A stretch of 35,497 nucleotides of DNA from Bacteroides sp. Lineage in GTDB: Bacteria > Bacteroidota > Bacteroidia > Bacteroidales > GCA-2748055. The stretch's first letter is position 1. Each line of letters begins with the position of its first letter. The stretch covers positions 1-35,497 of the forward strand of contig DSEO01000378.1 in NCBI GenBank assembly GCA_011056635.1, read 5' to 3'. The position numbers were made by a program, and so were the translations under genes. The notes under the pieces are model-generated. The model was not told where the DNA came from. It did not search any database and saw nothing but the letters and a program-made list of their open reading frames with translations. Below are positions 10,492-19,644 of the stretch, piece after piece.

Positions 10492-11268
10492 CTATTTCTT
10501 CTCTTCCTGATCCTCCTCGCCGGGTTCTTCTTCAGCCTCGGGGGCTTCTTCAGCCTCGGGTTCTTCTTCAGCTTCGGGGGCTTCCTCTGCTTCGGGCTTT
10601 TCCTCAGCTTCGGGGGTTTCTTCAGCTTCGGGCTCTGCTGCTGCTTCGGGCTGCTCTTCAGCCTCGGGGGCTTCTTCAGCCTCGGTTTTTGCCTCGGCTA
10701 CGGGCTCTTCTGTTTTGGGAACACTACTTTCAGGCACTTCAGCTTCGGGCACTTCGGCATCGGGAGTTGTTTCTTCCGCGGCCTCAACCGGGGCCTCGGA
10801 TTCCATCAATTCGGACCGCTTTTTCTCAATTTCCAGGGCCCTCGCCTCCTTGATCCTGGCTTCCTCTTCCAGCTTGGTTTGCTCCAGGGAGCTTTTGGCA
10901 TTCTTGATCCGGTCACGTTTGGCCTGGATCTTTTGTTCCTTTTCGGTCATCCAGGACTGGAAGCGCTTGTCCGCTTCAGCCTCATCGAATGCACCCTTTT
11001 TCACACCCTCCAGTAAATGTTTCTTGTACAGGACTCCTTTGTAGGACAGGATAGCTCTACATGTATCTGTAGGTTGAGCGCCTTTCTGCAGCCATTCTAA
11101 GGCTCTGTCAAAATCCAGAACAATGGTAGCAGGATTGGTATTGGGATTATACTGACCCAAAGATTCAATGAATTTACCATCTCGTGGCGCCCTGCTATCA
11201 GCAACTACAATAGCGTAGATCGAAGTAAACTTTCGACCCTGTCTTTGTAATCTGATCTTTACAGGCAT
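10492..11268 (-). CDS. rpsP: 30S ribosomal protein S16 with long acidic C-terminal tail
   Basis: Residues 1-80 are a normal S16 ([30 protein letters not shown], in two parts here: [12 protein letters not shown] and [15 protein letters not shown]; then [10 protein letters not shown]). Most S16 proteins end near residue 80-90. Here a charged helical segment follows (about 95-155, rich in K/E/R), then about 100 residues dominated by Glu, Ala and Pro with units such as [14 protein letters not shown] and EEPEAEE. Acidic S16 tails are known in Bacteroidota, but this one is very long and internally repeated. The tail should be disordered and strongly negative, projecting from the 30S surface. The frame is intact to the stop, which abuts rimM. 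Confidence 0.93.
10520..10690 (-). repeat. Degenerate tandem repeat inside rpsP
   Basis: Units of 15-30 bp built on the plus-strand phrase TTCAGCCTCGGGGGCTTC recur with small changes and encode the acidic EAEE(A/E/K)PEAEE repeats of the S16 tail. All length steps preserve the reading frame. Such arrays often vary in copy number between strains by slippage. Confidence 0.75.
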
Positions 11269-11404: not shown

Positions 11405-14400
11405 ATGTTTTTAATTTTCGATACCGAAACCACCGGTCTTCCGCTCAGAGACAATGCACCCATCACCGAAATCGACAACTGGCCCAGGGTGGTGCAGATT
11501 GCATGGCAGTTACACAACGATACGGGGGAACTGACTTCACATCACAACCTTCTGATCAAACCGGATGGATTTGAAATTCCTTACTCCGCAGAGAAAGTCC
11601 ATGGCATATCGACAGAAAAAGCCACCCGTTACGGCGTACCCCTGGAGGAAGGACTTGCCTTTTTCAATGAATCGGTTTCCAAAGCCCTGTTCCTGGTAGG
11701 ACATAACATCAGTTTTGACGTGAATGCACTCGGTGTGGAATTCATCCGCACGGGGATCCAGTCCACTTTCCTGGAAAAGAAACAGGTGTGCACCATGTGG
11801 TCCAGCACGGATTATCTGAAGCTCCCGGGAGGAAGGGGAGGGAAATTCAAGCCTCCCAGGCTGATGGAACTGTACAGGAATCTTTTTGAGGAAGATTTCC
11901 CGGAAGCGCATAATGCTTCGGCCGACGTGGAAGCCACGGCAAGGTGCTTTTTTGAATTGCTCCGGCGAAAGATCATCGCTCCCGAGGCCATCAATTTTTC
12001 TCCTGCGCTTTTCTCCCGATTCATTGCGCAACATCAAAACAGGATCGGAAACTACGGGATTGTCCATACCCAGCCGTGGGAATTGCAATCCGCGGATGCG
12101 GCGCAATCCGGAGAGTCAGCCGGACCGGAGGAGGCCGCAGAGATACTCCCGGCGGGGTTTGCGGCGGATCCTGGCGGGGACGGAGCTGCATTCTGTCACC
12201 TGCACGTGCATTCCCAGTATAGCATCCTGGACGGGGCAGCCAGTATCCAGGAACTGCTGAAGAAAGCCGTGGATGACGGTATGGGAGCCGTGGCCCTGAC
12301 CGATCATGGCAACATGTTTGGCATCAAAGAGTTTCACGAAGAAGCAACCCGCCGGGGCATCAAGCCGATCCTGGGATGTGAAGCGTACATTGCCCGCCGC
12401 TCCAGGCTTACCAGGGAGGATAAAAATCTGGATGCCTTCTACCATATTGTACTGCTGGCAAAGAACCTGACTGGCTACAGGAACCTGATCACCATAGTCT
12501 CCCTGGGATGGACCGAGGGATTCTATTATAAGCCCCGCATTGACAGGGAACTGCTGTTGAAGTACCACGAAGGGATCATCTGTCTTTCAGCCTGCCTGGG
12601 CGGAGAGATCCCCCAGTCCATCATGAATCAATCCGTGGAAGATGCTGAGAAGATCATCCTTGAATACAGGAAGATCTTCGGAGAAGATTTCTACCTGGAA
12701 CTTCAGCGGCATCAGACCAATGATCCGGGTATGGACAAACTGGTGTTCGATGACCAGGTATTTGTGAATCAGACCCTGCTGGAACTGGGCAAAAAACACG
12801 GGATCAAATGCGTGGCAACCAATGATGTGCATTTTGTGAACAATGAGGATGCGGAAGCCCATGACCACCTGATCTGCCTCAATACGGGCAGGGACCTGGA
12901 TGATCCGACCCGCCTCAGGTACACGAGACAGGAATGGTTCAAGACCCAGGAAGAAATGAAGGAGGTCTTCTCGGATCTTCCCGAGGTACTGAACAACACG
13001 CTCGAGGTCGCCGATAAGGTAGAAATGTACGAATTGAATTCCAAACCGGTGATGCCGCATTTTCCCCTGCCGGAAGGATTCCAGAATGAGGACGAATATT
13101 TAAAATACCTTTCCTATGAAGGGGCGAGAAGCAGGTATGGGGAGATCACACCCGATCTGAAGGAACGGCTCGATTTTGAGCTGGAAACTATCCTGCGAAT
13201 GGGTTTTCCCGGGTACTTTCTGATCGTCCAGGATTTTATCAATGCCGCCAGGAAGATGGAGGTTTCCGTCGGTCCCGGCCGCGGTTCGGCAGCCGGTTCC
13301 GCAGTGGCATACTGCCTGGGGATTACGGACATTGATCCCATCAAATACGATCTGCTGTTCGAGCGATTCCTGAATCCTGACCGTATCTCGATGCCTGACA
13401 TCGATATTGATTTCGACGAGGATGGAAGGGATGAGGTGCTTCACTGGGTTGTCAGCAAATACGGGCACGACCGGGTCGCCCATATCATTACCTTCGGGAC
13501 GATGGCTGCGAAGATGGCCATCAGGGACGTGGCCAGGATCCAGAAACTCCCGCTGCCCGAAGCCGACCGCCTGGCCAAGCTGGTGCCGGAACGGCCGGGC
13601 ATTACACTGGAAAAGGCATACCAGGAAGTACCGGAGCTGAGCAAGGAACGGAATTCTCCCAATCCACTCATTGCCAACACACTTCGTATCGCACAACGGC
13701 TGGAGGGTTCAGTCAGGCAAACGGGGCTGCATGCCTGCGGTGTGATCATCGGACGGAACAGGCTCACCGATCATCTGCCGGTTTGCTTCTCAAAAGAATC
13801 GGACCTGCTGGTCACACAGTATGACGGTCACCATGTGGAGGATGTGGGTATGCTGAAAATGGACTTCCTGGGTCTGAAAACGCTCTCCATCATCAAGGAT
13901 GCAATCATGAATATCCGGGAATCGAGGGGGATTGATATCGATATTGAAAAGATCCCCATGGATGACGAAGCAACCTTCGCACTTTATTCCCGGGGAGATA
14001 CCACCGGTCTGTTCCAGTTCGAATCGCCCGGGATGAAAAAGTACCTGCGGGAACTCCTTCCCAACCGCTTTGAGGATCTGATCGCTATGAACGCCCTGTA
14101 TCGTCCGGGGCCCATGGAATATATTCCGAGATTCATCAACAGGAAGCACGGCAGGGAAAAGATCGAATATGACCTGCCCGAAATGGAGGAATACCTGAAG
14201 GATACCTACGGGATCACCGTGTACCAGGAACAGGTGATGCTGCTGTCAAGAAAACTGGCCGGTTTTAGCCGGGGGCAGGCCGATTCCCTGAGGAAGGCCA
14301 TGGGCAAGAAGATCAAGAAGATGATGGATGAGCTCAAGGTGAAGTTCGAGCAGGGGTGCCAGCAAAACGGAATTCCCGGTAAAAAGATAGAAAAGATCTG

Positions 14401-15682
14401 GACCGACTGGGAAGCATTCGCGCAGTATGCCTTTAACAAATCCCACTCCACCTGCTATGCGTATGTGTCCTACCAGACCGCATACCTCAAGGCAAATTAC
14501 CCCGCGGAATTCATGGCAGCGGTCCTGAGCAGGAACATCACCGATATTAAAAAGATCGGCCTCTTCATGGATGAATGCAGGAGGATGGGAATATCCGTAC
14601 TCGGTCCAGATGTGAACGAGAGCAATGTGAGATTCACCGTCAACGACAACGGGGATATCCGGTTCGGACTCGGGGCCATCAAGGGGGTGGGTGAAAATGC
14701 CGTGAAAAGCATCATCGAGGAACGGAGACGCAGTGGTCCTTTCAGGGACATCTATGATTTTGTGGAACGGAATGACCTGCGCCAGGTGAACCGCAAGAAC
14801 CTGGAAGGGCTGGTGATCGCGGGAGCACTTGATTGTTTCAAAGACATTTCCAGGAGCCAGTATATCGATACCGTGGAGGAAGCAGAACCCACCTTCATTG
14901 AGCAGTTGATCAAATATGGCAACAAGATCCAGTATGAAAGGGATACACCGCAACAGAACCTTTTCGGCGAAATAAGCGCCATCAGTATTTCCAGGCCCGA
15001 GCCTCCGGCAGTGGACGAATGGCATCTGCTTGACAAGATCACCCGGGAAAAGGAGTTGATCGGGATTTACCTCACCGCCCATCCCCTGGACCGCTTCAAG
15101 CTGGAAATCGATTCATTCTGCAATATCACACTCCATGAACTGGATGACCTGCAGCAGCACAGGGGCAGGGATCTGGTATTCTGCGGGATCGTGAAGACCG
15201 TCAGGGAAGGCGTGGACCAGTGGAGGAACAAACCCTACCTGCTGGCACTGCTGGAAGACTATACCGATACCTACAACATCCGCCTGAAGAATGACGACTA
15301 TGTGAACTTCAGACAGTATTTCAGTCCGGGTGTGGCCCTGATGATCCGTGCGGCTGTCAACGAATGGAGCCCCCGCGATGAGCCCCAGAGAAAAATTTTT
15401 TCCCTAAAATTCAAAATGGTGCACATGCTGGCCGATGTCCGCGAAAAGCTTGTCAGATCTGTGGACATTACCCTGGACATTCAACAGATCACCCGTGACC
15501 TGATCGATCAACTGGAAAGATATACCGTTCATGAAAACGGGAAGAACCTGAAATTACACATATTCGATCCGCAGACCGGTCTGAATGTCAATCTGTTTTC
15601 CAGGAACAAACAGGTGGATCTTTCAGATGATTTTATGGATTATCTGAAAAACCAGTCCGGGTTCGAATTCCGCCTGTCATGA
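11405..15682 (+). CDS. dnaE: DNA polymerase III alpha subunit with fused N-terminal DEDDh exonuclease
   Basis: A 1425-residue replicative polymerase, about 250 residues longer than a standard DnaE. Residues 1-190 are a DnaQ-like proofreading domain with all five catalytic residues: Asp6/Glu8 in DTETTG, Asp105 in HNISFD, His169 and Asp174 in HNASAD. A variable linker follows. The PHP domain starts near 263 with HLHVHSQYS, keeping the HxH metal-binding pair that is lost in E. coli. The polymerase core has the GPGRGSAAGS loop and the catalytic PDIDIDFDE motif (664-672). Helix-hairpin-helix and OB-fold regions follow (GRDLVFCGIVKTV). The protein may therefore proofread without a separate epsilon subunit. 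The start fits both the exonuclease motif at residue 6 and the upstream promoter. Confidence 0.95.
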   Translation: MFLIFDTETTGLPLRDNAPITEIDNWPRVVQIAWQLHNDTGELTSHHNLLIKPDGFEIPYSAEKVHGISTEKATRYGVPLEEGLAFFNESVSKALFLVGHNISFDVNALGVEFIRTGIQSTFLEKKQVCTMWSSTDYLKLPGGRGGKFKPPRLMELYRNLFEEDFPEAHNASADVEATARCFFELLRRKIIAPEAINFSPALFSRFIAQHQNRIGNYGIVHTQPWELQSADAAQSGESAGPEEAAEILPAGFAADPGGDGAAFCHLHVHSQYSILDGAASIQELLKKAVDDGMGAVALTDHGNMFGIKEFHEEATRRGIKPILGCEAYIARRSRLTREDKNLDAFYHIVLLAKNLTGYRNLITIVSLGWTEGFYYKPRIDRELLLKYHEGIICLSACLGGEIPQSIMNQSVEDAEKIILEYRKIFGEDFYLELQRHQTNDPGMDKLVFDDQVFVNQTLLELGKKHGIKCVATNDVHFVNNEDAEAHDHLICLNTGRDLDDPTRLRYTRQEWFKTQEEMKEVFSDLPEVLNNTLEVADKVEMYELNSKPVMPHFPLPEGFQNEDEYLKYLSYEGARSRYGEITPDLKERLDFELETILRMGFPGYFLIVQDFINAARKMEVSVGPGRGSAAGSAVAYCLGITDIDPIKYDLLFERFLNPDRISMPDIDIDFDEDGRDEVLHWVVSKYGHDRVAHIITFGTMAAKMAIRDVARIQKLPLPEADRLAKLVPERPGITLEKAYQEVPELSKERNSPNPLIANTLRIAQRLEGSVRQTGLHACGVIIGRNRLTDHLPVCFSKESDLLVTQYDGHHVEDVGMLKMDFLGLKTLSIIKDAIMNIRESRGIDIDIEKIPMDDEATFALYSRGDTTGLFQFESPGMKKYLRELLPNRFEDLIAMNALYRPGPMEYIPRFINRKHGREKIEYDLPEMEEYLKDTYGITVYQEQVMLLSRKLAGFSRGQADSLRKAMGKKIKKMMDELKVKFEQGCQQNGIPGKKIEKIWTDWEAFAQYAFNKSHSTCYAYVSYQTAYLKANYPAEFMAAVLSRNITDIKKIGLFMDECRRMGISVLGPDVNESNVRFTVNDNGDIRFGLGAIKGVGENAVKSIIEERRRSGPFRDIYDFVERNDLRQVNRKNLEGLVIAGALDCFKDISRSQYIDTVEEAEPTFIEQLIKYGNKIQYERDTPQQNLFGEISAISISRPEPPAVDEWHLLDKITREKELIGIYLTAHPLDRFKLEIDSFCNITLHELDDLQQHRGRDLVFCGIVKTVREGVDQWRNKPYLLALLEDYTDTYNIRLKNDDYVNFRQYFSPGVALMIRAAVNEWSPRDEPQRKIFSLKFKMVHMLADVREKLVRSVDITLDIQQITRDLIDQLERYTVHENGKNLKLHIFDPQTGLNVNLFSRNKQVDLSDDFMDYLKNQSGFEFRLS

Positions 15683-15806: not shown

Positions 15807-16124
15807 ATGGCATTAGAAGCAACTGACAGCAATTTTGATGAACTGGTGTTAAAGTCCGACAAACCGGTGATCGTTGATTTCTGGGCTGAATGGTGCGGTC
15901 CCTGCCGGATGGTCGGACCCATTGTGGAAGAAGTCGGAGCCGATTACGACGGCAGGGTTGTGGTAGCCAAACTGGATGTGGACAACAATCCCGCTGTCAC
16001 TGCCAGATACGGGATCAGGAACATCCCTACCATCCTTTTCTTCAAAGACGGTAATGTGGCTGATAAACAGGTTGGCGCGGTCCCGAAAAGTATGATCGTG
16101 AATAAACTGGAAGGATTGCTATAA
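15807..16124 (+). CDS. trxA: Thioredoxin
   Basis: A 105-residue protein disulfide reductase of standard length. The active site WAEWCGPCRM has the classical CGPC pair. The cis-Pro loop is IRNIPTILFF, and VDFWA and VAKLDVDNNP complete the fold. No signal peptide is present, so it is the cytoplasmic electron donor for ribonucleotide reductase, methionine sulfoxide reductases and similar enzymes. It converges with the caspase gene, with 7 bp between stop codons. Confidence 0.96.
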   Translation: MALEATDSNFDELVLKSDKPVIVDFWAEWCGPCRMVGPIVEEVGADYDGRVVVAKLDVDNNPAVTARYGIRNIPTILFFKDGNVADKQVGAVPKSMIVNKLEGLL

Positions 16125-16131
16125 AGCCTTT

Positions 16132-18474
16132 TTATTTCGGGATAAAAAAGAAGGTCCCGTTTTCATCTTCCAGCCCGGCGATCCTGCCAAACTGAGGTTC
16201 CTGTTGCCTGTTATTCACCACTGCCGTGGTTACCTTCTGGACAATCTTTTCAATGGGTATGCAGTCACCCGGGCTGTGGGTCAGCACATTTGCAAAGGTC
16301 CGTGTAAACTGGCTGTTGTCCGCTGCACGTTCATAACCCGCAGAAGAAAATACCTGGGAGGATTTTAGCCGGGCGTCTTCCCAGTTATCACAATCCCGCT
16401 CCTGCAGCCCCGATCGCATGGCCTGATAGAAGGCAGGTCCCGATTCACAGGCATCGGTGATAACCAGGGTGTGACTCAAACAATCGGGGTAGGATTGCAT
16501 GGATGCTTTCAGCGCATTGATGCTGAAAAATGAGAACTCATCATTCCAGTTTGCATCCACCGGGATCCAGTATCCTGTTTCATTGATATATTTCCCGTGA
16601 CCGGCGTACCATACCATCAGGGAATTCACCCGGTTGCTCCGGATCAGATCCCTGAGTTCAATGGCGAAGAAACGTTCCAGTTCCTGTTTGGACATGTCCT
16701 TCTTATGGATGAGATTGTGGATCTGGTATTTATCCAGTGCAGCTTTCATCAAAGTGATATCCCTGGCAGGACCTTCGAGCCTTGCGTAGGATTCATAATT
16801 GGAATTCTCGATAAATATGGCCCAGGTCTTGCCCATGGGATTGTTGTCGAATGAACGGGTGTTCCTGTTCAGGGTGAATGATGTTTCCGACCGGTTCCCG
16901 TATACATCTTCTGCCAGCACGGTGATCCTGCTTCTGTTGCCCACGTTGACCATGGCCGAAAAGGAAGGGTTGATATCGCTCGGGATATAACTGGCTGACA
17001 CACTGTCGATGTAAATGCTGCGGATCCGGCTTTCATCTGCGATCCTTCCCTCGATATACATGTTGGGATCCTCGCTGTCCAGGCACAGCACGTTGTTTTC
17101 GGTTCCGTAAGGTGCGATAATCTGCACCGAGGGCGGGTCCACCTCGGTCCGCCTGAGCGCGTAGATGGCAGTTTCTGCATTGTCGTAAACATCCGACACC
17201 TGGACAATGATCTGGTCTGTTTCCTTTACATTCACACTGGTCAGGAACCGGTATCCCTTTTCAGTTTTCTCCACGGGAACAGCGAAGTTATTTACCTGCA
17301 ATGATTTGATATTGCTTTCATCCTTGATGAGCCCCGTGAGGGCGATCACCTCGGCACCCCTGGGGACATCCACACTGCCGTCCATTCCCGATTCCGGTTC
17401 GGTCAGTTCAACCTGTGGCTTGACATCTTCCCTGTTCAATTCAAAGATCCGTCCCCTGACCTCAGCAGACAGCTCCCGGGCTACTCTGTCCTGCCCCGAC
17501 ATGACCAGCAGCTTTTCATAGTCCGCCAGCGCATTTGAATGGTCCCTGATCGCTTCGTAGGCAGCCGCCCGTTTGTAATAGGCCTCGGCCATTTCCGGGA
17601 CCAGCTCAATCACTTTCGTGTAGTCGATCACAGCATATGGGGCCTGGTTCATCAGCGCATAATGGTCTCCGCGGATCAGGTAGATCCTGGGATCATCCGG
17701 ATGTTCAATGGAAGCCAGGGAAAGCACCTCGATGGCCCCTTGATAGTTCTGCAGTGAAGACAGGATCCTGCTCTGAAGGAGCATACCCTCCAGGTTCTGC
17801 GGATCCAGTTCAAGCATCTTACCAACGGTTTCAAGGGCTTCACTGTTTTTCTCTCTTTTGTGCAGCAATCCGGCCAGTGCAAAATGGGTTTCTGCCACCT
17901 GATCATTTTCCCGGAGGGAGTTGCGGTATGCATCTTCTGCCTCCCTGTACATCTCAAGCCGGTCATATACCTGCGCCAGATTATAGTAACCCAGCGCGTC
18001 CTCTTTGAGCCTGAGGCATATCCTGCAATCCTCCAGGGCTTCCTGATATCGTTGAAGCTTGAAATAAACCATGGATCTGACCTGGTAGGCCTCCAGGTAA
18101 TTCCGCTTCATATCAATGGCCTTTTCCAGCCTTGTCAGCGCATCGCCAAGCCGACCCTGCTGATGGTGTGCATATCCGGAAAGGTAATAGAGTTCGGCGT
18201 CTTTCTCATTGAAAACGATGGCCCTGTCATAATCGGCCGCTGCATGTTCATAATCGTTCAGCCTGGCATAAGCGTTGGCGCGCTGGATATAGGCCCTGTC
18301 ATAACCGGGATCCATTTCCACCGCTCTGGTGAACTGTTCAATGGCATCCCGGAAATTCATTTTTTCAAAAAATTCCTCCCCCGCCCTGAAATACTGTCTG
18401 GCCGACTGGGCAAACATGAACTGGGCCCCCATCATCGGCAATAAAAACAGTATGCATGCCAAACGTTTTTTCAT
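16132..18474 (-). CDS. Secreted TPR - Ig-like - caspase (C14) protein
   Basis: A 780-residue exported protein. Residues 1-22 form a Sec signal peptide ending in FAQ. Residues 24 to about 340 hold roughly nine to ten tetratricopeptide repeats (e.g. RAYIQRANAYARLNDYEHAA, AELYYLSGYAHHQQG). Two Ig-like modules follow (about 345-540), each with a segment of the type VxVxDVYDNxxT or VLAEDVYGNRSET. From about 547 (KTWAIFIENSNY) comes a caspase-like domain with both catalytic residues: His626 in WYAGHGK and Cys676 in TDACESG. The 50-residue spacing is normal for the C14 fold. Metacaspase-type enzymes cleave after basic or acidic residues, and specificity here is unknown. It lies 80 bp downstream of ribD on the same strand. 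Its periplasmic or surface location is unlike that of cytoplasmic defence caspases. Confidence 0.9.
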   Translation of the reverse strand: MKKRLACILFLLPMMGAQFMFAQSARQYFRAGEEFFEKMNFRDAIEQFTRAVEMDPGYDRAYIQRANAYARLNDYEHAAADYDRAIVFNEKDAELYYLSGYAHHQQGRLGDALTRLEKAIDMKRNYLEAYQVRSMVYFKLQRYQEALEDCRICLRLKEDALGYYNLAQVYDRLEMYREAEDAYRNSLRENDQVAETHFALAGLLHKREKNSEALETVGKMLELDPQNLEGMLLQSRILSSLQNYQGAIEVLSLASIEHPDDPRIYLIRGDHYALMNQAPYAVIDYTKVIELVPEMAEAYYKRAAAYEAIRDHSNALADYEKLLVMSGQDRVARELSAEVRGRIFELNREDVKPQVELTEPESGMDGSVDVPRGAEVIALTGLIKDESNIKSLQVNNFAVPVEKTEKGYRFLTSVNVKETDQIIVQVSDVYDNAETAIYALRRTEVDPPSVQIIAPYGTENNVLCLDSEDPNMYIEGRIADESRIRSIYIDSVSASYIPSDINPSFSAMVNVGNRSRITVLAEDVYGNRSETSFTLNRNTRSFDNNPMGKTWAIFIENSNYESYARLEGPARDITLMKAALDKYQIHNLIHKKDMSKQELERFFAIELRDLIRSNRVNSLMVWYAGHGKYINETGYWIPVDANWNDEFSFFSINALKASMQSYPDCLSHTLVITDACESGPAFYQAMRSGLQERDCDNWEDARLKSSQVFSSAGYERAADNSQFTRTFANVLTHSPGDCIPIEKIVQKVTTAVVNNRQQEPQFGRIAGLEDENGTFFFIPK

Positions 18475-18554: not shown

Positions 18555-19604
18555 TCAATGAACAGGATCCATCCCGCGCCGGAAAAAGTCCAGTGCAATA
18601 TCGTTGAAAAAGATGGTTTCCACCGGAGGATCCCCTATTTCCGGGGCACTTACCCCCTTTCCGAAAGTTCGGTTGCCGGTGAATACCCTGGCCTCATCCC
18701 AAAGTCCCGAATCCAGAAACGCACTGATCAGGATTGCTCCTCCTTCCACAAGCACTGACAGGATCTTCTGGTCCGCCAGTGCTTCAAGCATGTCCCTCAG
18801 TTCGTAGGAGGAATCCACGGGTATCCTGCGGATCTTTCCTGAATATTTTCCGCCTGCATCTGTGAAGACAATGGTTTCCTGGGAACCATCCAGTATATAA
18901 GAACTATCAAAAATCCTGCCATTCCTGTCCATGGTGATCCTGACCGGAGCATCCCCGGTCCATTTTCTCACATTCAGCCGCGGATTATCCGTCACCACGG
19001 TATTGGTCCCCACCATGATCCCGGCTTCCTCCGATCGCCATTTATGGACCAGGGTCCTGCAGACTTCATCCGTGATCCAGTTTGGCCCGATGGGATTATC
19101 GCGTCTCCGCTCAAGATCAATAAAACCATCCCGGGTCTGCGCCCACTTCAGGATCACATAGGGACGTTTTTCCTGCTGGTACACGAAGAACCGCCGGTTC
19201 AGGTGATACCCTTCCTGTTCCATACAGCCCGTCTCAACGTCCACTCCCTTTTCCCTGAGATAACCGATGCCGCGTCCGCTTACAATGGGAAAAGGATCGA
19301 TGTTGGAGACCACCACCCTCCGGATCCCTTTTTGTTGAATAAGCAAGGAACAGGGTGGCGTCTTCCCATGATGAGAGCAGGGCTCCAGGTTTGCATAAAG
19401 GGTAGCTTCGGGCAGCAGGGAGTGATCTTTTACCGATCGGATTGCATGGACCTCGGCATGGGGACCCCCGAACTCATGATGGTACCCCTCACCGATGATA
19501 CGCCCGTTGTGTACGATTACACAACCCACCATGGGATTGGTGTGTGTCAGTCCCAGTCCCTTCCGGGCCAGTTCGAGGCATCGGCGCATGTATATTTCAT
19601 CCAT
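18555..19604 (-). CDS. ribD: Bifunctional riboflavin biosynthesis protein RibD
   Basis: RibD deaminates and then reduces the pyrimidine intermediate of riboflavin synthesis. The N-terminal deaminase domain has the zinc site HAEVHAI and PCSHHGKTPPC. The C-terminal reductase domain shows VILKWAQTRDGFI, then GIMVGTNTVVTDNPRLNVR and SVLVEGGAILISAFL. The length (349 residues from the ATG at 19604) is normal. A TTG at 19613 would add three residues, and an ATG at 19589 is also possible. It diverges from prmC with only about 40 bp between starts, and the caspase gene follows it on the same strand. Confidence 0.94.
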   Translation of the reverse strand: MDEIYMRRCLELARKGLGLTHTNPMVGCVIVHNGRIIGEGYHHEFGGPHAEVHAIRSVKDHSLLPEATLYANLEPCSHHGKTPPCSLLIQQKGIRRVVVSNIDPFPIVSGRGIGYLREKGVDVETGCMEQEGYHLNRRFFVYQQEKRPYVILKWAQTRDGFIDLERRRDNPIGPNWITDEVCRTLVHKWRSEEAGIMVGTNTVVTDNPRLNVRKWTGDAPVRITMDRNGRIFDSSYILDGSQETIVFTDAGGKYSGKIRRIPVDSSYELRDMLEALADQKILSVLVEGGAILISAFLDSGLWDEARVFTGNRTFGKGVSAPEIGDPPVETIFFNDIALDFFRRGMDPVH

Positions 19605-19644
19605 CTCATTCAACAGGTATCTGCTTTATTGCTAATTTTAAACC

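Follow-up and report, generated by a model that had tools for sequence, protein, structure and literature searches.

An exported caspase-like protease and a transmembrane receptor phosphatase, encoded by two genes that usually lie side by side, very probably form a conserved module of Bacteroidota. The caspase gene was analysed in a stretch of 35,497 nucleotides assigned to a Bacteroides sp. (hereafter the window; contig DSEO01000378.1 of assembly GCA_011056635.1) and compared with its orthologues in related genomes. Our leading reading, to which we give slightly less than an even chance, is that the extracytoplasmic caspase controls the transmembrane phosphatase switch, probably by cleavage; the cleavage, the direction of the signal and the target of the phosphatase are what we infer. 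The features on which the analysis is based are collected in Table 1.

Table 1. Features of the caspase gene and its surroundings in the window
Feature	Position	Strand	Basis or remark
Exported TPR-Ig-caspase gene	16132..18474	-	780 aa; ATG start
Predicted signal peptide, residues 1-22	18409..18474	-	hydropathy and orthologue comparison; cleavage expected after A22
Nine TPR repeats and cap helix, residues 25-346	17437..18402	-	Pfam and AlphaFold2
Two all-beta, probably Ig-like modules, residues 354-443 and 449-536	16867..17415	-	AlphaFold2; relatives match Big/Glucodextran_B weakly
Caspase (C14) domain, residues 548-780	16135..16833	-	Pfam, model and fold matches; most conserved part
Asp572, aligned with MALT1 Asp365 (S1 pocket)	16759..16761	-	64/64 sequences
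Catalytic His626 codon	16597..16599	-	sequence and orthologue alignment
Asp674, expected to be the other Asp of the S1 pocket, two residues ahead of Cys676	16453..16455	-	64/64 sequences; assigned by motif spacing only
Catalytic Cys676 codon	16447..16449	-	sequence and orthologue alignment
Invariant Cys695, possible disulphide with Cys738	16390..16392	-	64/64 sequences
Invariant Cys738	16261..16263	-	64/64 sequences
Site of the propeller-SpoIIE gene (about 3.2 kb) of relatives	16125..16131		stop codons of caspase and trx 7 bp apart in the window
trx (thioredoxin), conserved convergent neighbour	15807..16124	+	named by eye
ribD, conserved upstream neighbour	18555..19613	-	named from an earlier note and by eye

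Domain organisation and export of the caspase

An ORF check found the reading frame to be intact and real, and its coordinates exact. Pfam searches with the window protein returned TPR_1 (E 2e-30) and Peptidase_C14 (PF00656; residues 550-762, E 2.4e-16, score 60.6 bits where the cut-off is 21.4), and neither NCBIfam nor PADLOC gave a specific name for it. The AlphaFold2 model, built on a 64-sequence alignment (mean pLDDT 84), consists of a TPR superhelix followed by two all-beta modules and the caspase domain. In the TPR region the model has 19 helices, i.e. nine TPR pairs plus a cap, which bears out the TPR platform proposed in an earlier note on this DNA. The Ig-like modules proposed with it correspond to the two predicted all-beta modules; their Ig identity is plausible only, as the segment has no Pfam match in the window protein. 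Glucodextran_B/Big matches for this region were obtained with some orthologues and paralogues, below threshold in the orthologues. A fold search with the whole model gave, among the matches listed, helical-repeat proteins only.

The window protein begins with a single hydrophobic segment (residues 5-23 by hydropathy), preceded by K/R and followed by A-Q, the usual pattern of a Bacteroidota signal peptide. A simple signal-peptide heuristic was passed by 78 of the 80 orthologues kept as the best of 245 relatives, and in the two rows that failed the start was not properly read. Judged by this heuristic, the caspase is predicted to be exported from the cytoplasm by a Sec signal, as had been proposed. 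A clade of 14 among the same 80 rows (L108, L112, L113, L115-L120, L122-L124, L132 and L136) carries a lipoprotein-like Cys at the expected cleavage point, and these caspases may be lipoproteins. The earlier note also regarded bacterial caspase-like proteins of defence and cell-death systems as usually cytoplasmic and an exported one as unusual. This was only partly right: N-termini were inspected at 17 other caspase loci of the order and all 17 have an N-terminal hydrophobic segment, and sections of the 2012 survey by Asplund-Samuelsson et al. (PMC3501461) had pointed out probable signal peptides for many caspase homologues of prokaryotes.

The catalytic domain

The catalytic residues stand in the contexts YAGHG (His626) and DACESG (Cys676). 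The intact dyad reported earlier was confirmed in the sequence and is kept in 24/24 loci when the window genome is taken together with its relatives, and in 80/80 orthologous loci (best 80 of 245 relatives), the two sets overlapping in genomes. Loss of the His/Cys pair in homologues, named beforehand as a refuting observation, was seen at none of these loci; the other such observation, a failed signal-peptide prediction, did not occur under the heuristic either. C14 is the slowest-evolving part of the protein, with a mean pairwise identity among orthologues of 74%, compared with 43% for the Ig and 38% for the TPR region. A pseudoprotease or scaffold, whose C14 domain would bind without cutting, is highly unlikely in view of the universal dyad, the invariant pocket aspartates (Table 1) and a catalytic domain that is more conserved than the binding modules.

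Structure prediction of the catalytic domain gave a caspase-fold C14 model with a pTM of 0.87 (AlphaFold2). Its best PDB match by Foldseek was the MALT1 paracaspase (E 2.3e-12), which was also the top match by VIA-align (Z 20.3, rmsd 2.5 over 194 residues), tied with caspase-8 and caspase-9 (Z 20.1). The VIA-align superposition extends over MALT1 338-563 and takes in the part that follows the Cys. The caspase fold of the C14 domain is thus supported by a predicted model. Asp572 aligns with the residue that we take to be Asp365 of MALT1, presumably lining its S1 pocket. Two such aspartates hold basic P1 residues in the metacaspase TbMC2, according to passages of PMC6426788, and on this ground an Arg/Lys specificity would be expected of the window caspase. 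The protein is best described as a predicted caspase of the Arg/Lys type, probably exported and catalytically competent. A possible disulphide between Cys695 and Cys738 would suit a location outside the cytoplasm.

Sampling of orthologues and gene order

Among 61 relatives searched, 24 genomes carry a full or near-full orthologue and one more a contig-end fragment. A scan of GTDB representative genomes gave 245 relatives, and the 80 best of them were retained; these orthologues align over most or all of the query and have Bacteroidota titles, except for one MAG labelled Chlorobiota. A phylum sample of 395 genomes, searched at E 1e-60 with two candidates scored per genome and few genomes of the same order, returned the window genome alone.

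The gene order prmC-ribD-caspase-trx-dnaE is conserved in comparison with the relatives, and most genomes have at least 3 kb extra between caspase and trx. As described below, this extra sequence holds a receptor gene. Among the best 80 of 245 relatives, ribD lies directly upstream of the caspase in 55 of the 72 loci with room and is not there in the other 17; at 15 of the 16 such loci with room downstream the receptor is still adjacent. Since the receptor stays where ribD does not, ribD was treated as a bystander, and an operon with ribD was rejected as a clue to function. The earlier view that the position behind ribD explains nothing is right for ribD; the neighbour that does explain something could not be seen from the window, since this genome has lost it. 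The conserved ribD linkage marks a chromosomal, vertically inherited locus.

Two other genes of the window were named by eye. Positions 10492-11268 hold a gene taken as rpsP (S16), whose product of 258 aa in total has a long acidic Glu/Ala/Pro repeat tail, and 11405-15682 a DnaE-type polymerase of 1425 aa with an exonuclease-like N-terminus. Between 22505 and 25340 lie DsrE-like, TusE/DsrC-like, DUF1641 and sulfide:quinone-type reductase genes, in an order conserved in relatives; of these, the TusE/DsrC-like gene was named by eye.

A receptor phosphatase gene beside the caspase

The gene-order comparison led to a propeller-Y_Y_Y-TM-SpoIIE receptor gene beside the caspase in relatives. It is the extra gene between caspase and trx, about 3.2 kb long (about 1055 aa) and on the same strand as the caspase, and its start is mostly no more than some tens of bases away from the stop of the caspase gene. 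Pfam assigns to its product Reg_prop (PF07494) propellers, a Y_Y_Y domain (PF07495) and a SpoIIE phosphatase (PF07228), with one TM segment; a single TM-like stretch at about 744-794 was found in 16/16 receptors. The PP2C-type Asp positions and the motifs SGDFYW, DCTGHGVPGAF and DG.DQFGG, which we take to serve the phosphatase, are invariant or nearly so in the 16 aligned sequences. From these sequences the double beta-propeller and the Y_Y_Y domain are predicted to be periplasmic and the SpoIIE/PP2C phosphatase cytoplasmic. By eye, no obvious conserved basic cleavage site was seen next to the TM segment in the 16-receptor alignment.

The receptor gene follows the caspase directly, on the same strand, in 71 of the 80 orthologous loci (best 80 of 245 relatives). 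The remaining nine comprise six without a receptor although at least 1 kb of sequence is available and three at contig ends. An adjacent pair is also present in Plebeiibacterium marinum D04, a strain-designated species (L130), which opens the idea to tests beyond metagenomes.

Bacterial caspase homologues have often been proposed as cell-death, fratricide or anti-phage effectors. The C14 domain and the export would fit such a function, and surface or fratricidal roles are raised in parts of PMC3501461. For the present family we consider it very unlikely: no PADLOC model matches the caspase domain, the weak matches being confined to the TPR region, the C14 domain has no match in 50,697 phage records, and the gene paired with it encodes a sensor phosphatase, neither a toxin nor a pore former. 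A defence or toxin identity was rejected on these negative searches and on the conserved housekeeping synteny of the locus, which is not an island. The pairing instead places the caspase in envelope sensing.

Co-occurrence and joint loss of the two genes

Of the 61 relatives, 18 have both genes, 7 the caspase only, 2 the receptor only and 34 neither, and both receptor-only cases are cut by contig ends. A count over 295 genomes of the order, in which a receptor ortholog was defined by at least 940 bits and two or three candidates per genome were scored, so that misses are possible, first gave 28 with both, 4 with the caspase only, 1 with the receptor only and 262 with neither. In G518 the receptor lies beside the caspase in two frames with an unread base between them; it was counted as both, which corrected the table to 29, 3, 1 and 262 (Fisher p 1e-35, for genomes that are related and not independent). 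Of the 29 genomes with both, 25 have the two genes side by side. In G674 both genes are at contig ends, and in G455, G457 and G462 each lies on a contig of its own.

In G458, the sole genome with the receptor only, and in G462, a short exported caspase of 264-266 aa, made up of signal and C14 domain with an intact dyad, directly precedes the receptor. It follows that the constant mate of the receptor is an exported C14 domain and that the TPR-Ig arm is optional. A receptor ortholog truly without an exported caspase, adjacent or in the genome, was not seen among the 61 relatives or the 295 genomes of the order. In one relative that is 99% complete (G019), both genes have been lost next to ribD.

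Lower-scoring receptors in G484, G508 and G584, set aside as paralogues ahead of the 295-genome count, also adjoin a caspase. Further diverged caspase/receptor pairs lie side by side in G021 (two), G023 and G025; they belong to two further caspase groups and amount to 4 of 21 paralogue stretches. No caspase was found by the receptor paralogues in eight stretches (L206, L207, L208, L209, L210, L219, L220 and L223).

Two arrangements with consecutive caspase genes were observed. At four loci (L094:1402-2205, L095:253-1056, L096:9893-10711 and L101:1605-2429) a short exported caspase, consisting of signal and C14 domain with the dyad intact, directly precedes the TPR-Ig-caspase gene. In L059/L035 (G016:C153) the full TPR-Ig-caspase gene is duplicated in tandem and the second copy alone touches the receptor gene; an apparent fusion of the first copy to ribD is due only to a run of unread bases.

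Solo caspases and the window genome

The window genome is a solo derivative, in which the receptor is cleanly missing and the caspase is kept. A receptor elsewhere in this genome was rejected: the best match, G000:C23 with 708 bits and about 30% identity, lacks an adjacent caspase and is a distant paralogue. The genome also has a second caspase (L051:2028-3266, G000:C114) of about 412 aa with a signal-like N-terminus and an intact dyad, again without an adjacent receptor.

Together with six others, the window genome makes up the 7 solo cases among the 25 caspase-bearing genomes of the 61 relatives. The solo state arose repeatedly. A single ancestral loss of the receptor was rejected, as the tree needs seven changes, at least six of them on starred branches, and shuffled solo labels equalled the tree's number of changes in 101 of 500 trials, so the solo copies are not clustered. 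In this tree L067 was scored as solo since trx follows, and L059, L080 and L094 were left unscored. The dyad is kept in the solo copies. Compared with outgroups, the C14 domains of five solo copies are 66-77% identical and those of five paired copies 76-80%; identity is lower only in L067 and L070, and a clear relaxation after receptor loss was accordingly rejected. With C14 conservation mostly as in paired copies, the caspase appears to have a use without the receptor.

The solo cases, and the non-adjacent pairs of G455 and G457, count against our leading reading. A possibility that we consider rather unlikely is a periplasmic protease that serves in processing or quality control and has many substrates in the envelope. 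The caspase would then be upstream and able to live alone, and the receptor would report its state, e.g. by sensing products. Repeated persistence without the receptor, the constraint on C14 in most solo copies and the lack of receptor orthologs truly on their own would all agree with such a role, whereas the strict adjacency and the co-loss favour a dedicated partnership. The one-sidedness of the loss, solo caspases being seen and the converse not clearly so, is a hint of a caspase that acts upstream or has a wider use. A reversed order of control, in which a ligand on the propellers frees or activates the TPR-caspase, with an extracytoplasmic output and the phosphatase as second output, draws on the same adjacency and co-occurrence and on the TPR array as a docking platform. 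It is improbable, as solo caspases would be unregulated, yet their C14 domain is conserved.

A proposed mechanism

We return to control of the phosphatase by the caspase. By predicted topology, the caspase shares one side of the inner membrane with the propellers, and the phosphatase is inside. The caspase would fold in the periplasm, or be lipid-anchored there in one clade, and its TPR-Ig arm would dock a ligand or an envelope partner. On a trigger, it would cut the propeller region of the receptor or else a protein of the envelope that is read by the propeller, and the cut would set the cytoplasmic phosphatase to act on phospho-STAS antagonists and, through them, on transcription. We favour a receptor controlled by caspase cleavage or by the products of the caspase, with a PP2C output via STAS/HATPase partners. 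RsbW-type HATPase and STAS proteins are present in 5/5 genomes searched; since 12 and 10 of the 14 control genomes match the two families as well, this presence is weak support. In the window genome, where the receptor was lost and the caspase retained, the caspase would have to act on another substrate or receptor.

Taken further, the caspase might be the switch of a PP2C receptor, a protease event outside the inner membrane setting a phosphatase cascade inside, which would be a new form of bacterial signal transduction; we offer this tentatively. With the same reserve, the module could be pictured as spread across environmental Bacteroidota, with several diverged pairs per genome and a receptor that can be shed.

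Comparison with known systems

Exported and TPR-bearing prokaryotic caspase homologues are already known from portions of PMC3501461 and PMC6426788. The orthocaspases and metacaspases treated in the former likewise have a C14 domain with His/Cys and probable N-terminal signals; TPR_1 is given for 7.0% and TPR_2 for 5.8% of 671 sequences, and some homologues lie in predicted operons with signalling domains. In contrast, the TPR-Ig-C14 architecture and the propeller-SpoIIE partner are not described in these portions of PMC3501461, and the family of the window caspase differs from the homologues there in being full length and syntenic across environmental Bacteroidota. In the open-licence PMC literature no description of a caspase/propeller-SpoIIE pair was found. 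For most bacterial caspase homologues no trigger, substrate or pathway is known, and a conserved, co-lost partner offers a pathway that can be tested.

Human MALT1, a cytoplasmic eukaryotic signalling protein, is the best PDB match of the window C14 domain, shares the pocket aspartate (Asp572 at the place of Asp365) and likewise has an Ig module beside the caspase domain. Its Ig3, however, follows the caspase domain, and it has neither a TPR array nor a receptor phosphatase; the identity is as low as 16%. The partner has exactly the Pfam domains of Reg_prop-Y_Y_Y sensors with SpoIIE output. These occur as several paralogues per genome, whereas the partner subfamily is distinguished by its tie to a caspase that is exported. 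RsbU/SpoIIE proteins belong to partner-switching systems with PP2C output, an output that the receptor shares, and the RsbW-type HATPase and STAS proteins of such systems are present in the genomes. Here, by contrast, the sensor is a periplasmic propeller and its neighbour is a protease.
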